From Acidimicrobiia bacterium (GTDB lineage Bacteria > Actinomycetota > Acidimicrobiia > Acidimicrobiales > Bin134), in assembly GCA_022822265.1 (NCBI GenBank), contig JAJECA010000025.1, positions 62,001-126,000 on the forward strand: a stretch of 64,000 nucleotides of DNA, given 5' to 3'. The notes under the pieces are model-generated. The model searched no databases, had not been told where the DNA came from, and saw only the letters and a list, made by a program, of their open reading frames with translations. Numbering within the stretch: the stretch's first letter is position 1; every line of letters starts with the position of its first letter. Shown in pieces: positions 28,300-48,861 of the stretch. A program made the translations under genes and the position numbers.

Positions 28300-28351
28300 A
28301 CTGTGACCGTATCCTGTTCGGCATCGACGGCAAATGGACAAAGGGGACGCA

Positions 28352-29530
28352 ATGAGCGACACAGTGGTATTGGCCGGAGCCCGTACGCCCATCGGGAAGA
28401 TGTCGGGTGGGCTGGCTTCGTTTCGGGGCGCCGAGCTGGGGGCGCTGGCCATTGAGGCCGCGCTGCACCGGGCCGGCGTGGCCCCCGAACAGGTGGACTA
28501 CGTGTTCATGGGCCAGGTGCTGTTGGCCGGAGAGGGCCAGGCCACGGCTCGACAGGCGGCGGTGGGAGCGGGCATCCCCATGACGGTGCCGGCCACCACG
28601 GTGAACAAGGTGTGCTTGTCGGGCATCAACACCGTCTATTTGGCCCACCAGATGATCTCCGCGGGCGACGCCGAGATTGTGGTGGCCGGGGGGATGGAGT
28701 CGATGACCAAGGCGCCCTATCTGCTGACCCGAGCTCGGGAGGGTTATCGCCTGGGCGACGGCGACTTGGTGGACTCCATGATGTACGACGGGCTGTTCTG
28801 CGCGTTCGACCACTGCGCAATGGGAACCGGGACCGAGAAGTACGCGGCGTCGAGCGGGTTGGACCGCGAGCCCCAAGACGCCTTCTCGGCGCAGTCGCAC
28901 CAGCGGGCCGCCGCCGCGGCAGCCGCAGGCCTGTTCGACGACGAGCTGGTGGCGGTGCAGGTGCCCCAGCGCCGGGGCGACCCCGTGCCGGTGTCGGCCG
29001 ATGAGGGGGTGCGCTCCGAGGCGACGGCCGAGTCTCTGGGCCGGCTGCGCCCGGCATTCGCCGAGTCGGGCAACATCACCGCAGGCAACGCCTCGCAGAT
29101 CTCCGACGGGGCCAGCGCGCTGGTGGTGGCCAGTCGGGAGCGGGCTGAACAGCTGGGTGTGGAGCCGTTGGGGACCTATGCGGGCTACGGGCAGGTGGCC
29201 GGGCCCGATCCCTCGCTGCTTACCCAGCCGTCGCGGGCCATCTTCCAGGCGCTTAAATCCTCCGATCTGAGCCTGGGCGACGTGGACCTTTTTGAGATCA
29301 ACGAGGCGTTCGCCGCGGTGGCGGTGGCGTCGATGGCCGATCTGGGGATTTCAGACGACGTGGTAAACGTCAACGGCGGCGCCATCGCCCTGGGCCATCC
29401 CATTGGCGCCAGCGGAAACCGCATCGTTCTCACCCTTTTGCATGAGCTTCGCCGCCGAGGCGGCGGTACGGGGGCCGCGGCCCTGTGCGGCGGTGGCGGC
29501 CAGGGAGACGCGCTGCTGGTTCAAGTTTGA
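28352..29530 (+). CDS. Acetyl-CoA acetyltransferase (thiolase)
   Basis: A 392-residue thiolase. Active-site Cys lies in NKVCLSGINTVYLAHQMI near residue 88; the C-terminal motifs NEAFAAVAV, GGAIALGHPIGASGNRIV (His) and ALCGGGGQGDALLV (second Cys in CGGGGQ) are complete. It condenses or cleaves acyl-CoA/acetyl-CoA. The ATG at 28352 (MSDTVVLAGARTPIG) has GGGGA just upstream. It is divergent from the exonuclease and followed by the candidate structured RNA at 29587. Confidence 0.94.
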   Translation: MSDTVVLAGARTPIGKMSGGLASFRGAELGALAIEAALHRAGVAPEQVDYVFMGQVLLAGEGQATARQAAVGAGIPMTVPATTVNKVCLSGINTVYLAHQMISAGDAEIVVAGGMESMTKAPYLLTRAREGYRLGDGDLVDSMMYDGLFCAFDHCAMGTGTEKYAASSGLDREPQDAFSAQSHQRAAAAAAAGLFDDELVAVQVPQRRGDPVPVSADEGVRSEATAESLGRLRPAFAESGNITAGNASQISDGASALVVASRERAEQLGVEPLGTYAGYGQVAGPDPSLLTQPSRAIFQALKSSDLSLGDVDLFEINEAFAAVAVASMADLGISDDVVNVNGGAIALGHPIGASGNRIVLTLLHELRRRGGGTGAAALCGGGGQGDALLVQV

Positions 29531-29551
29531 TTGTTACAGAACCGATATGAC

Positions 29552-29580
29552 TTGACTTTGTTTCGTCATTTTTGTAATGT
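29552..29580 (+). promoter_or_regulatory. Sigma-70-type promoter in the thiolase-recR gap
   Basis: TTGACT (29552-29557), 17-nt spacer, TAATGT (29575-29580), followed by a transcription start expected near 29587. There is no coding sequence downstream on this strand, which points to an RNA gene. The -10 overlaps a 19-nt motif (29574-29592) also found in the M23 promoter. Confidence 0.5.
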
Positions 29581-29586
29581 AATCGC

Positions 29587-29700
29587 AACATACAAGCACC
29601 GCCTTATGCGTGCCGGTTCCCAATGCCCCCCGCCCGGCTCGCTAAGGCGGTGTCTTGCGTCTGAGGGGCATTCGAACCAGGCCGGTGCCTCGGATTTGGC
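29587..29700 (+). ncRNA. Candidate structured small RNA with a long hairpin and C6 loop
   Basis: Positions 29593-29657 fold into 22 base pairs: CAAG/CTTG, CACCGCCTTA/TAAGGCGGTG, GCG/CGC and GCCGG/CCGGC, interrupted only by single-base bulges or one T-T mismatch. The 17-nt loop (29617-29633) contains AATGCCCCCC. A second region, GGGGCATT (29665-29672), is complementary to loop bases 29622-29629. A promoter lies directly upstream. C-rich loops in Gram-positive sRNAs pair with Shine-Dalgarno sequences; the actinobacterial 6C RNA is one such type, but it has two C-rich hairpins and here I see one. The alternative is an unusually elaborate thiolase or recR terminator. It lies between convergent genes. 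Confidence 0.45.
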
Positions 29701-29711
29701 GGACGACTGAG

Positions 29712-30323
29712 TCAGCCGGCCGAGATGCGCTGGCGGCCTTCCAGAGCCCGGGTGAGGGTGAGCTCGTCGGCGTATTCCAGATCGCCGCCCACGGGTAGGC
29801 CGCTGGCAATGCGAGTGACGGCCACCCCGAGGGGCTCGATGAGCCGGGCCAAGTACATGGCGGTGGCCTCGCCCTCGATGTTGGGGTTGGTGCAGCAGAT
29901 GACCTCGGTCACGTTCTCGTCGTCGATGCGGGCCAGCAGCTCCTTGACTCGAAGCTGATCGGGGCCGATGCCCTCGATGGGATTGATGGCGCCGCCGAGC
30001 ACGTGATAGCGGCCCCGGAATTCTCGGGTTTTCTCCAAGGCCACGATGTCGCGGGGCTCTTCCACCACGCACAGGATGGCTGGATCGCGCCGGTGGTCGG
30101 AGCACAGCTCGCACTCGGGGTGCTCGCTGATGTTGAAGCACCGCTGGCAGAACCGGACTCTTGCCTTGGCCTCCTTGATGGCCTCGGCCAGCTTGAGGGC
30201 ATCGTGCTCAGATGCCTTCAGCAGATGAAAGGCGATGCGCTGGGCAGACTTCGGGCCGATGCCGGGCAGGCGGCCCAGCTCGTCGATCAGCACTTGTACC
30301 GGGGCGGTGTAGACGCTGCTCAT
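29712..30323 (-). CDS. recR: Recombination mediator RecR
   Basis: A 203-residue protein. N-terminal helix-hairpin-helix ([20 protein letters not shown]), a four-Cys zinc finger ([16 protein letters not shown]) and a Toprim domain ([31 protein letters not shown]) followed by the Walker-like C-terminus ([17 protein letters not shown]). RecR with RecO and RecF loads RecA at gaps. It lies 45 nt downstream of dnaX, the usual dnaX-recR order, although the YbaB gene often found between them is absent. Confidence 0.96.
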
Positions 30324-32349: not shown

Positions 32350-32452
32350 TCCCGGTCTCGAATGCGATGGCAGAGTCAGTCGTGCCATGGGTCCCGGCCT
32401 CGATAGTGACGGCAGAATCAGTCTTGCCGTTGGCCCCCGGTCTCGAAAGTGA
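32350..32452 (-). repeat. 42-nt degenerate tandem repeat with covarying hairpins, between SRP RNA and dnaX
   Basis: Two full units and one partial unit, each beginning CCCGG(T/C)CTCGA on the plus strand. Unit 1 holds ATGGCA-10 nt-TGCCAT; unit 2 holds ACGGCA-10 nt-TGCCGT. The A-T to G-C change in the stem is compensated on both sides. The third unit keeps only the first half. The repeat is downstream of ffs and upstream of the dnaX -10 box. Confidence 0.7.
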
Positions 32453-32460
32453 TGGCCAGG

Positions 32461-32545
32461 CGGTCTGCGGCACACCCCAGGATCCGCTGAGAGCTGCTGC
32501 CTCCCGGCCCTGACTCGGTTCACGGGCTGGCGTTGCACAGGACCC
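32461..32545 (-). ncRNA. ffs: Signal recognition particle RNA (small bacterial type)
   Basis: On the minus strand the core reads CCCGTGAACC, GAGTCAGGGCCGGGAGGCAG and CAGCTCTCAGCGGATC, matching the conserved SRP helix 8 with the GTCAGG..GGAAGGCAGCAGC-type symmetric and asymmetric loops. The ends pair: GGTCCTGTGC at the 5' side with GCCGCAGACC at the 3' side. Boundaries are estimated from this pairing. The gene lies beside tRNA-Ser and dnaX, as in other actinobacteria. It binds Ffh for membrane targeting. Confidence 0.85.
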
Positions 32546-32645
32546 GACCATCACATTCCAAACCGGGCCCACGGCCCAGATGGCAACAGGATAGCGGCAA
32601 TCGGTTCAGGTCTGCCCGTTGGGTTGCGGTAGTTTTTTGGCTCCC

Positions 32646-32733
32646 GGAGGGGTGCGAGAGCGGCCGAATCGGCACGCTTGGAAAGCGTGTGTGGCGCAAG
32701 TCACCGTGGGTTCGAATCCCACCCCCTCCGCCA
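32646..32733 (+). tRNA. tRNA-Ser (anticodon GGA)
   Basis: Acceptor GGAGGGG (32646-32652) pairs with CCCCTCC (32723-32729), then G discriminator and encoded CCA (32731-32733). The anticodon loop TTGGAAA gives GGA, reading UCC/UCU. The long variable arm (GTGTGGCGCAAGTCACC) and T arm GTGGGTTCGAATCCCAC are typical of serine tRNA. Confidence 0.96.
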
Positions 32734-43807: not shown

Positions 43808-43950
43808 TAGTACACAGAGCAAACATAATGGTGACATACCAGGGCGGATCGGGTAGGTGTTGTCACTAGGTGGATTAGCGGTATCGGATTCCTTGGGAGG
43901 GCTGCTGTGAACACGATGATCGACGCGGGGCCGAACCGCGGGGGGGGGTG

Positions 43951-46900
43951 ATGAGGCCCAGCGCTTTGCTTGTAGCGCTGGTGATGCTGGCAGCGCTGCT
44001 CGTTGCGGTAGCGGCACCCCCGACGGCGCTGGCCGCCGAGACGACGCTGGTGTCGAACACGGGTGAGTCCACCCCGTCAGCAGGCAGCCCCTTCAGGGCG
44101 CAGAGCTTCACGACCGGCGCGCAGGGTGCCACGATCTCAGAGATCCAGGTCAAGCTCATCGGCCATAGCGGTGATGTTTCGGTCAAGCTGCGCAAGGACG
44201 CCACCAGTGGCTGCCCGACCGGCATCGGCAACTGCCCGGGCGATTTGGTGGCCACCTTCACCAACCCGTCCAGCATCGTTGCGGGGCTCAACAGCTTCAC
44301 CGCGCCAGCCGGCACCAAGCTCGATGCCAGCACTACCTACTGGGTGACTCTTCACGAGGGCGTCAGCAACAGGCGGAACATACCCGTTACGGCTTCGGAC
44401 AATCAGACAGGCACTACTGGCTGGACCATCGGCGACGGGAGCTTGTGGAGACAATCCGAGTCGAGCGATTGGCAGACTTCGACCAACTCGTTGGCGATCG
44501 CTGTCAAGGGCGAGCTCAGGGTGGCGGAGTTTGTGTCGGCGGAGGTGAACGGCACGAAGCTGAGCATTGACTTCGGCGAGAGCCTCAATACGACTTCGGT
44601 ACCGGCGACCACCGATTTTGGGGTGACGGTGGGCGACCAGCCTCGGAGTGTGGCCGCTGGCGGTGTGGCAATTGCCGACACGAAGGTGACGCTGACGCTG
44701 GCGGACCCGGCGGTGACGGTCGGGCAGACCGTGACGGTGAGCTACACGAAACCTTCAGGGGACGGGGCGATGCCGCTCAAGGACGCAGCCGATGTTGACG
44801 TGGAGACGTTCGGCGCCCAACCGGTGACCAACACGACGGCACCGTTGATCGAGAGCGTATCGCTGGTGTCCAAACCCCGGGCCACGCTGAGCGATTCTGA
44901 CAACACAAAGGTCTATGGAGTTGGCCAGAACATCGTGGTGGCGGTGACGTGGAACGGTCGGGTGTCGTGGGATGTGAGCGGCGCTGCCGCCGACGGCATC
45001 GGCGTGCGCCTGAACATCGGGGGCACCAACCAGCGGGCGCAGTTGGTCACGGACGGGGCGACCAGCGGCACTGCGACCACGCTGTGGTTCAGCCACACGG
45101 TTGCGAGCGGCGATTCCGACAACGACGGCGTGGCCACGGCCCTGGTCAACAACAAGCTGGTGTTGTTGGGCACCGGTGCGACGCTGAAGGGCGCCGAGGG
45201 AACCGACGCTGCACAGAGCGATGCCGGAGTGACCCACGCGGGGCTCGGCAATCAGTCTGCCCACAAGGTGGTAGCCACCCGCACCCCGGTTGCCAACAGA
45301 GCGCCCGCCTTCGACGATGGGGATGACAGTACTCAGGGGATGAGCATGGGTACCCTCAATGCGATTCCGGGCACCTTGGTGCACCAAGGATTGGAGTACC
45401 AAGACTCAGAGAACCAGATCGTCCCGTTCTTTAGCGACGCCGACAAAGACAGCTTGAGGTTCACCTTCAGCGCCACCCGCCTGGACGCGCTGGAAGTCAA
45501 GCCGCGGATTATTGGCACCAGACTGTTCCTTCAGACTGCAAGAAGTTGTGTGCTCGAAGATCTGCTGCCCGCGTTGCAGCGCAACAACAATGACGAGTTC
45601 GAGAATGTCGTAACCGTCGCGGCTTTCGACCCGGACGGAGCGAGTGTCTCAGCAACACTGAAGCTGCTCATCAATTGGGATTGTGGTGAATTTGTCAGCG
45701 CCACGGTGAACGGCAGCGCGCTCAAGCTGACCTTCTCCAACCTCCCCGGATCCAGCGCGCCGTGGTTCACCAGCCAATTTGGCGGTCTAGCGGCTGACCA
45801 GTTTGAGGTGAAGGTGAACGGGTCCGAGGTGGCGCTTGCGGCCGCCAATACATTCTCGGTGAGCGGCAACGTGCTGACGGTCAATTTGGCGGCGGCAGTG
45901 ACCCGCGGCCAAACCGTCACTGCGAGCTATGAGCCCGGAATCGAGGAGGTTCGAGGGCTGAGCGACCAGCCGGTGGTCAACCTGCTGAACACGGCGCCCG
46001 AAAGCGCGTCGATGACCGGGAACACGTTGACGGTCACCTTCACTCGCGATCTGAAAGTGCCGGACGCAGCAGCGCTGGCGAAGCTCGTTTACGCGTTCAG
46101 AGTCACGGGCGTGTACTGGGAAGGGGCCCCGCTGCGCAATGTGTCACCCCAGACGGTCGCGGTGAGCGGCAAGACGGTGACGTTGACCCTGGGGACGCCT
46201 GAGTTTGGGGGGAGGCCGGAGCAAGGTAAGTGGGATCTAGAGACGGAACTCAGTGAGTCGGCCCTGTCGCCGGGCCGGGATGTGAGAGTGGAATATCTCC
46301 GGAGCGTCGCGAGCGGTTTCGGGGTCGCCCTCCTAGACAATGCCGATAGCACCGAGGTTCCCGGCTTCACCGACTATGCGGTGACGACGACATTCGCTAC
46401 CACGGAGCCGCCATTGGCGACGGGAGTGCAGGTGGATGGGACGGCGCTGACGTTGTCTTTCGATCAGGATCTGGACACGGCGTCGCTGCCGGCGGGGAGC
46501 CGTTTTCGCGTGTCGACGTCGCCGCGGGGCCTCTACATCAATCCGCATGTCACCGTGCCGCGTGCCATCTCGGGCACAGGCACCGCAGCAGTGAGCGGCA
46601 AGACGGTAACGGTCACGCTGGAGTCGGCGGTGGACCCTGAAGAGGACTTCATCGTGTGGTACCGGCCAGGTGACGATGCCAATCCTCTGCGGGCAAGCTC
46701 CACCGGGCCGAAGGTGGCGGAGATCCTGGGGGCGCTGGGCAGCAGGCGAGACCGAACGGCACCAGCGCTGGACAGCGCGGTGGTAGCGGGCACATCTCTT
46801 TGGCTGTACTACAGCGAGAAACTGGACACCGGCTCGGTACCGAGCACGGGTGATTTCACGGTGATGGAGGGCACCACGGCCAGGACAGAGAGCGATGTGA

Positions 46901-48861
46901 CGGTGAGCGGCAACGCGGTCAAGCTGACGCTGTCGGGAAATGCGGTGGGAACGAGCACTGCGGTGACGGTGGGTTACACCGCGGGCACGAACCCGGTCCA
47001 AGATCTGGCGGGCAACGACGCCGGGAACCTCTCAAGCCATTCGGTTACCAACGCAGGAGACAACCCTATGGCTGCGCCGACGCTTTCGACGACAGACCCG
47101 GCGGTGGCGGATCAACTGGTGCTGAGGCTCACCTTCAACCAGTGGTTGGATGGGGCGGAGGTTCCGGGAGCCGGCGCGTTCACGATCGCGGGCGGGGATA
47201 CGCCCATGAGCGTCCGCGGTGTTGCGGTGCGAGGCAAATCGGTAGAGCTGCGGGTCTCTCCTGGTTTCTTACCGTGTTCCTCGGGCTACACCGTGAGTTA
47301 CACGAAGCCGAGCAGCAATGCGCTGCAAAGCGTGTGGGGCACCGACGTGGAGGCGATTTCTAGCCAGGCGATCACGAACAAGTGGTCGGCTCGATGCCGG
47401 TCCACGGACCCTCAGCCGAGGCAAATCGGTAACAGCGACGGCGTCGTTGGCGGCTTAGGCGGCAGGTCGCTGAGCCTTGAGTTCGACCGGCCGCTGAGCC
47501 CCCTGCAGCCACCGAGCCCTGAGGGGTTCACGGTGAAATCGAGCATTCCCGGCGGTGCAGCCGCAATGCCCGTCGAGGTCGTCGAAATCCGGCTCTCGCC
47601 CAACGACAGGCAACTTCAGATGGCGCTGAGCCGACAGCTCACCCCTGGCGAGCAGGTGGCGGTCAACTACCAGCACCCACGCTCCGCCCCTGGGATTTGG
47701 GACGCCGAGGGCGACCAGATAGCGCCGTTCTCGGTGGAAACCGTCGTTCCCGGCGCCGCACCGGAAGTTACCGGTGTGGAGGTGGTGTCGGATTCCGGTG
47801 ACGACAACACCTACGCCATGGGCGAAGTCATCGAGATCAAGGTCACGTTCGACAAAGCGGTGACCGTGACCGGCACGCCGCTTTTGGGCATTGACATGGA
47901 TCCGGCGCATTGGGGCCGCAAGGACGCGGTTTATGCCAGTGGCAGCGGCACCGCCGAGCTGATCTTCACCCACACCGTGATAGAGCCGAACTACTCGTCG
48001 CAGGGCATCGCGGTGCTTGCCGACACGCTCGACCTTGACGGCGGCACCATCACGGCTACGGCTGGCGGCACCGACGCCGATCTGTCCCATACTGGGCTAG
48101 GCCACGATTCCGATCACAAGGTGGACTGGCGGCAGTCGCCGCCCGATGCCAACGGGAACCGTTCGCCGGTGTTTGGCGGCGTAGATCCGGGATGGGTCAA
48201 CGCGCCCCCTGGGTACCTAGTTAGCCTTTCGGTGTCGCAGTCTGATTTCAGCGATCCCGATGGCGACACGCTCACGTTCACACTGTCCACGAACCGCGAC
48301 GACATCTACGCGGCGGGCGATTTGGTGTACGTCGACAGGATCGGTCGCATCTTCTTCGCTGCGAAGACGGCGTGCGCGCTGGCCAGCCTTGATCCACCGG
48401 AGAGCGGCACGTACGACACGGTGGTCACCATGACCGCGACCGACCCCGACGGCGCCACCGCGCAGGTTTCGGCGACGTTCCGTACCAATCCGGCGACGTT
48501 CGCGTGCCCTTCGCTTTCGACCGCCACGGTGGACGGCGCGACGCTGACGATGGCGTTCAACGGAGCGTTGGCCCCGAGCTACAAGCTCGTGCCGGCCAAT
48601 GGGGTGTTTGAAGCGCTGACGGCGGGCCAATTCGAGGTAGAGGTGGACGGCGCCGCAGTCAGTCTTGCCGATGCGGTGTCGGTGAGCGGCGACGCGATCC
48701 GCGCTGACAACCTCCGCGGACCCGACACAATTAGCCTGACCCTGGCCGAAGCGGTGACGGCAGGCCAGACCGTCACCGTGAGCTACACCCCAGGCAACTA
48801 CCCACTAGCGGCCGCGTTCACCGACCAGCCCACCACCAACACAACCACATCGCAAAACTGA
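43951..48861 (+). CDS. Giant secreted multidomain protein with SwmB-like repeats
   Basis: A 1,636-residue exported protein. Signal peptide: MRPSALLVALVMLAALLVAV then AAPPTALA. Residues about 30-190 resemble a choice-of-anchor beta domain (SFTTGAQGATISEIQV...NSFTAPAGTKLDASTTYWVTL). Then come at least seven roughly 100-residue beta modules with the SwmB-like pattern V-x-G-x-x-L-x-(L/I)-x-F...L...V..G..V.VSY, for example near 195, 585, 830, 945 and at the C-terminus, interleaved with cadherin-like FSDPDGDTLTFTLS modules. There is no LPXTG, TM helix or lipobox; the end TTNTTTSQN is free. Probably a surface- or matrix-associated adhesin or structural protein. Start ATG 43951; GTG 43948 adds one residue. 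Confidence 0.8.
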   Translation: MRPSALLVALVMLAALLVAVAAPPTALAAETTLVSNTGESTPSAGSPFRAQSFTTGAQGATISEIQVKLIGHSGDVSVKLRKDATSGCPTGIGNCPGDLVATFTNPSSIVAGLNSFTAPAGTKLDASTTYWVTLHEGVSNRRNIPVTASDNQTGTTGWTIGDGSLWRQSESSDWQTSTNSLAIAVKGELRVAEFVSAEVNGTKLSIDFGESLNTTSVPATTDFGVTVGDQPRSVAAGGVAIADTKVTLTLADPAVTVGQTVTVSYTKPSGDGAMPLKDAADVDVETFGAQPVTNTTAPLIESVSLVSKPRATLSDSDNTKVYGVGQNIVVAVTWNGRVSWDVSGAAADGIGVRLNIGGTNQRAQLVTDGATSGTATTLWFSHTVASGDSDNDGVATALVNNKLVLLGTGATLKGAEGTDAAQSDAGVTHAGLGNQSAHKVVATRTPVANRAPAFDDGDDSTQGMSMGTLNAIPGTLVHQGLEYQDSENQIVPFFSDADKDSLRFTFSATRLDALEVKPRIIGTRLFLQTARSCVLEDLLPALQRNNNDEFENVVTVAAFDPDGASVSATLKLLINWDCGEFVSATVNGSALKLTFSNLPGSSAPWFTSQFGGLAADQFEVKVNGSEVALAAANTFSVSGNVLTVNLAAAVTRGQTVTASYEPGIEEVRGLSDQPVVNLLNTAPESASMTGNTLTVTFTRDLKVPDAAALAKLVYAFRVTGVYWEGAPLRNVSPQTVAVSGKTVTLTLGTPEFGGRPEQGKWDLETELSESALSPGRDVRVEYLRSVASGFGVALLDNADSTEVPGFTDYAVTTTFATTEPPLATGVQVDGTALTLSFDQDLDTASLPAGSRFRVSTSPRGLYINPHVTVPRAISGTGTAAVSGKTVTVTLESAVDPEEDFIVWYRPGDDANPLRASSTGPKVAEILGALGSRRDRTAPALDSAVVAGTSLWLYYSEKLDTGSVPSTGDFTVMEGTTARTESDVTVSGNAVKLTLSGNAVGTSTAVTVGYTAGTNPVQDLAGNDAGNLSSHSVTNAGDNPMAAPTLSTTDPAVADQLVLRLTFNQWLDGAEVPGAGAFTIAGGDTPMSVRGVAVRGKSVELRVSPGFLPCSSGYTVSYTKPSSNALQSVWGTDVEAISSQAITNKWSARCRSTDPQPRQIGNSDGVVGGLGGRSLSLEFDRPLSPLQPPSPEGFTVKSSIPGGAAAMPVEVVEIRLSPNDRQLQMALSRQLTPGEQVAVNYQHPRSAPGIWDAEGDQIAPFSVETVVPGAAPEVTGVEVVSDSGDDNTYAMGEVIEIKVTFDKAVTVTGTPLLGIDMDPAHWGRKDAVYASGSGTAELIFTHTVIEPNYSSQGIAVLADTLDLDGGTITATAGGTDADLSHTGLGHDSDHKVDWRQSPPDANGNRSPVFGGVDPGWVNAPPGYLVSLSVSQSDFSDPDGDTLTFTLSTNRDDIYAAGDLVYVDRIGRIFFAAKTACALASLDPPESGTYDTVVTMTATDPDGATAQVSATFRTNPATFACPSLSTATVDGATLTMAFNGALAPSYKLVPANGVFEALTAGQFEVEVDGAAVSLADAVSVSGDAIRADNLRGPDTISLTLAEAVTAGQTVTVSYTPGNYPLAAAFTDQPTTNTTTSQN

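Follow-up and report, generated by a model that had tools for sequence, protein, structure and literature searches.

Small RNAs with C-rich hairpin loops are of a known kind, and two of them come closest to the locus considered here. According to the published accounts, 6C/B11 is 93 nt long with two C6 stem-loops (PMC8628891), the loops of B11 repress a 5' UTR bearing six G (PMC10470900), and sX13 of Xanthomonas, which is Hfq-independent, has C-rich loops that require G-rich mRNA motifs (PMC3771888). The family described below appears to be new. It shares with 6C/B11 an actinobacterial host (sensu lato), small size and a run of six C within a hairpin loop, but it has one longer hairpin and other gene neighbours. 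With sX13 it shares a stable stem, an apical C-rich loop and a proposed antisense logic of C-rich to G-rich sequence; sX13, however, has three hairpins and belongs to a distant phylum, and the likeness is one of design, with no homology claimed. Its position and strong GC-rich stem are also those of bidirectional intrinsic terminators of convergent genes, from which it differs in its own conserved promoter, its near-invariant 17-nt loop and its strand-biased covariation.

The locus belongs to a sponge-associated bacterium and lies in the window, that is, the whole stretch of 64,000 nucleotides that was analysed, between the gene for an acetyl-CoA C-acyltransferase (thiolase; 28334-29530, + strand, TIGR01930 above cut-off) and the convergent recR (29712-30323, - strand, TIGR00615 above cut-off). 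An earlier note had described a 22-bp hairpin with a C6 loop at 29593-29657, and direct reading bears this out. The arms at 29593-29616 (5') and 29634-29657 (3'), both on the + strand and defined by folding and covariation, form 22 pairs, interrupted by a U29611/U29639 mismatch and by two bulged residues, U29607 and U29653, and they enclose the 17-nt loop UUCCCAAUGCCCCCCGC (29617-29633, +), whose C6 is at 29626-29631. The minimum free energy of positions 29590-29660 (71 nt) is -37.5 kcal/mol, against -21.2 ± 2.5 kcal/mol in 200 shuffles, none of which folds equally well (z = -6.56). The hairpin is not a chance product. In a wider stretch of 121 nt, z is only -2.31 and 4 of 200 shuffles are equally good. 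Since the opposite strand of the hairpin folds about equally well (z = -5.65), folding alone gives no strand.

We now consider the sequence ahead of the hairpin, where a TTGACT-N17-TAATGT promoter had been noted and is indeed present. This candidate promoter (29552-29580, +) consists of TTGACT at 29552-29557, a 17-nt spacer and TAATGT at 29575-29580. It matches 8 of 12 consensus positions by manual count, and a strict E. coli consensus scan found no promoter site; its conservation compensates for failing this filter. The pattern TTGA[CA]T-17-TANNNT stands 11-12 nt ahead of the ACAA of the hairpin in all 19 loci with readable DNA, the contig of the twentieth (G009) being cut there. Over the 17 genomes compared, the -35 hexamer is invariant (identity 1.00) and the -10 box has an identity of 0.95. 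In the divergent genome G004 the promoter, TTGAAT-17-TATGAT, was recognised by the pattern alone, because MAFFT left it unaligned. Around the -35 region there are nested dyads (29534-29577), TTACA..TGTAA and ATGAC..GTCAT. The inner one, an imperfect ATGAC-N13-GTCAT at 29547-29569 without strand that overlaps the -35 region, is mostly kept among relatives and changes symmetrically in G004 (ATAAC..GTTAT, with different spacing); it may tentatively be taken as a possible operator.

Conservation is concentrated in the promoter and the hairpin. Over the same 17 genomes, identity is 0.90 in the 5' arm, 0.94 in the 3' arm and 0.94 in the loop, compared to 0.68 at the third codon positions of the thiolase, and it drops 3' of the hairpin to 0.66 (29658-29664) and 0.50 (29665-29700). 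Strong same-genus BLAST matches to 29531-29715 mostly stop at query position 127-137, about the end of the hairpin. From the position of the -10 box and the drop in identity beyond 29657, we infer a transcript of ca 70-80 nt (29587-29662, +) that would start about 7 nt past the box.

A covariation analysis among relatives had been proposed in the earlier note, and it reveals a stem that is both conserved and covarying. In an alignment of 20 sequences (14 distinct), to which G004 was added by model alignment, 6 of the 22 stem pairs change on both sides, a number reached in none of 500 shuffles, and pairing is kept in 306 of 308 cells (99.4%). When G004 is left out (MAFFT alignment, 19 sequences, 13 distinct; 23 pairs counted, one of them the mismatch position), four pairs have two-sided changes and 13 of 500 shuffles score as high. 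Control structures slid to other positions have at most one such pair. The standard one-sided changes are all G-U when read on the + strand, which fixes this as the functional strand; read on the other strand, those 10 cells become A-C mismatches (counted by eye). Model scores are ca 92-104 bits on the + strand in the main group, as opposed to ca 32-43 on the other. A promoter at a fixed distance and a covarying RNA structure, the marks of an independent sRNA gene, are thus both found, and on this comparative evidence it is very probable that the locus holds a small non-coding RNA gene.

All 20 homologues, the long-branch relative among them, have the same loop core WTGCCCCCCGCC, and G004 retains ATGCCCCCCGCC while its stem is partly rewritten. 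That the loop stays fixed while the stem varies suggests that it is the loop that does the work. The consensus fold permits an inner stem of 2 bp, which leaves a C5 loop displayed. It had also been proposed that the loop (29622-29629) pairs with GGGGCATT at 29665-29672. The latter exists, but only in the window's genome and not in its relatives, and this pairing was therefore rejected as a general feature.

Next, the known RNA families were considered. At the gathering score, Rfam 15 gives only SRP RNA and tRNAs in the window, all of them elsewhere. At E≤10 the locus gives three weak matches below the threshold, the best with E 1.1, and the divergent member gives one (E 4.4); three further loci have none at E≤1. 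The 6C model (RF01066) fails to match 29500-29760 even at E≤10 and matches none of the 22 genus genomes at E≤0.001, the latter in a search of low sensitivity that detected its control in 1 of 14 genomes, below the cut-off. The searches with 6C and with all of Rfam that the earlier note had proposed thus assign the locus to no family. Of its suggested relation to 6C, a shared logic is plausible, while membership was rejected: there is one conserved hairpin instead of two, the sequence after it is not conserved, and RF01066 does not match. Its wider proposal of a candidate small RNA, possibly of a new class, is supported by the genus-wide conservation, the covariation, the kept promoter and the lack of an Rfam match.

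With model R1 the RNA was matched in 20 of 22 genomes of the genus at E≤1e-7. It is missing from G010 (best E 0.88) and G016 (no match), and with two members lacking it the RNA is dispensable. The thiolase-recR gap of G010 is short and without such a hairpin, and no thiolase was found in the 3.6-kb recR locus of G016. In a recR tree, in which several deep supports are low, G004 and G016 share one long branch and G010 falls among the carriers, which is consistent with an old presence in the genus plus two losses. The RNA is single-copy in the window's own genome, where the other BLAST matches are only 14-27 bases long (E≥0.3). The matching public records (18 stretches) are metagenome-assembled genomes, labelled mostly Acidimicrobiia, Acidimicrobiales or bacterium; one is Candidatus Poriferisocius aerobius. 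Beyond the genus, model R1 matched 17 of 397 genomes of the order at E≤0.01, all within the window's genus; a search of the phylum matched 1 of 396, the window's own genome, and a pattern scan of IMG/VR gave no match. Model R2 matched 9 of 395 genomes of the class at E≤0.1, three of them outside the genus (E 0.004-0.012). These three, judged by eye to resemble terminators, were discarded, two being short hairpins without a C loop and one lacking the loop core. The RNA is thus probably restricted to the window's genus, with no convincing homologue outside in these large searches, whose stricter filters and sampled groups could let weak homologues escape.

Wherever the upstream gene is assembled, the hairpin lies between the thiolase and the convergent recR. 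The latter is present in 19 of 19 loci compared and in the G004 locus, and the thiolase is nearly full length in 17 of those 19 and in G004. The G009 contig ends, and G021 has a thiolase remnant only, beside which RNA and promoter are intact. Large internal losses have cut this thiolase (L025, L051) to ca 34 codons, misassembly being possible. In the window, genes for SRP RNA (32451-32549, -) and tRNA-Ser (32646-32733, +) adjoin dnaX-recR.

We propose that an RNA is transcribed from its own sigma-70-type promoter on the + strand of the thiolase-recR gap and forms a single long hairpin, the stem of which would display, and probably stabilise, the exposed C-rich loop. The GC-rich base of the stem, followed by CUUGCGUUU (UCUUGCGUCU in the window), may also terminate transcription. 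As in other C-loop sRNAs, for which B11 and sX13 offer the closest working model by analogy, the loop would pair antisense with G-rich stretches of mRNA, e.g. ribosome-binding sites. The idea that the C-rich loop pairs with such sites was already in the earlier note, and the small target tests lend it no support. Against the start regions of 44 crudely called genes of the window, 161 of 200 shuffled loops do equally well or better, and by duplex energies internal coding windows pair with the loop still more strongly than start regions do. A genus search for the perfect 12-nt loop complement gave no conserved target, the only site in G004 being the RNA itself. With two mismatches allowed, G004 has 275 sites, compared to 161 for the reversed pattern. 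Thirty of these near-match loci were readable, one being the RNA itself; none of the 29 judged lies within 60 nt 5' of the first possible start of an ORF of at least 100 aa. The strongest candidate in the window is a run of nine G preceding the start of a gene (43948-48861) whose 5' region is matched by no DNA of 21 other genus members. This gene encodes a protein of 1637 aa that contains SWM repeats (Pfam PF13753). As these tests are unsupportive, we set the probability of an sRNA gene with its own promoter that acts antisense through its loop on G-rich mRNAs at about one half. The RNA, present in one copy and combining a promoter, covariation and a C-rich loop that does not vary, is a ready candidate regulator; its existence would speak for a renewed origin of the C-loop design outside 6C. 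The literature search brought up no paper on small RNAs of these sponge-symbiont Acidimicrobiia.

Other explanations must be weighed against antisense action. The invariant loop of the structured RNA could instead be the binding site of a protein or of one particular RNA, and not pair with many mRNAs. The entire core is fixed, on the long branch too, which exceeds what a C6 seed needs, and the target searches turned up no conserved complementary partner. However, there is no known or predicted protein partner, and known sRNAs such as B11 and sX13 use C-rich loops as antisense seeds; we regard this reading as rather unlikely. Its more specific form, a new, genus-restricted family of sponge symbionts whose invariant 12-nt loop recognises one partner, protein or RNA, by a mechanism other than that of C-tract antisense sRNAs, is doubtful to much the same degree. 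A plain transcription terminator, perhaps bidirectional, would account for a location between convergent genes, for strong folding on both strands and for the moderately T-rich stretches that flank the hairpin on either side. It would not require a promoter at fixed spacing, an invariant long loop or a G-U bias to one strand, and the hairpin is kept in G021 next to a mere thiolase remnant. The tail after the hairpin is only moderately U-rich. No terminator-like site came out of a consensus scan, which admits loops of up to 8 and would have passed over this hairpin in any case, and of five thiolase-recR gaps outside the genus, three of them short, none has this hairpin. A terminator function by itself is thus improbable.

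Two further possibilities concern coding and neighbouring sequence. If the transcript extended into the 3' end of recR, it could control the recR/dnaX mRNA as a cis-antisense regulator, and in several genomes recR does end only ca 20-25 nt past the stem. Between the stem and recR, however, conservation is lacking (0.50 identity, as given above), and this stretch is expanded by duplication in several genomes, which makes such a role quite improbable. The statement of the earlier note that no ORF lies downstream of the promoter holds for conserved ORFs, but not for a frame that opens inside the loop (MPPARLAKAVSC...) with ATG or TTG in all 20 homologues. That this frame is the gene of a short peptide is hardly credible: its length ranges between 13 and at least 80 codons, and this lack of conserved length disfavours it, no ribosome-binding site is evident, the start is sealed inside the hairpin, and several changes alter amino acids and track the stem pairing.

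Finally, just after the hairpin, the 3' arm, the tail or both are duplicated in tandem in loci L010, L009, L021, L024 and L044. The repeats share 26 exact bases at a spacing of 35 nt in G020, 19 bases in G011, 16 in G001 and 13 in G006, and G004 likewise has a post-hairpin duplication. These seemingly arose in several lineages, perhaps by slippage driven by the hairpin.
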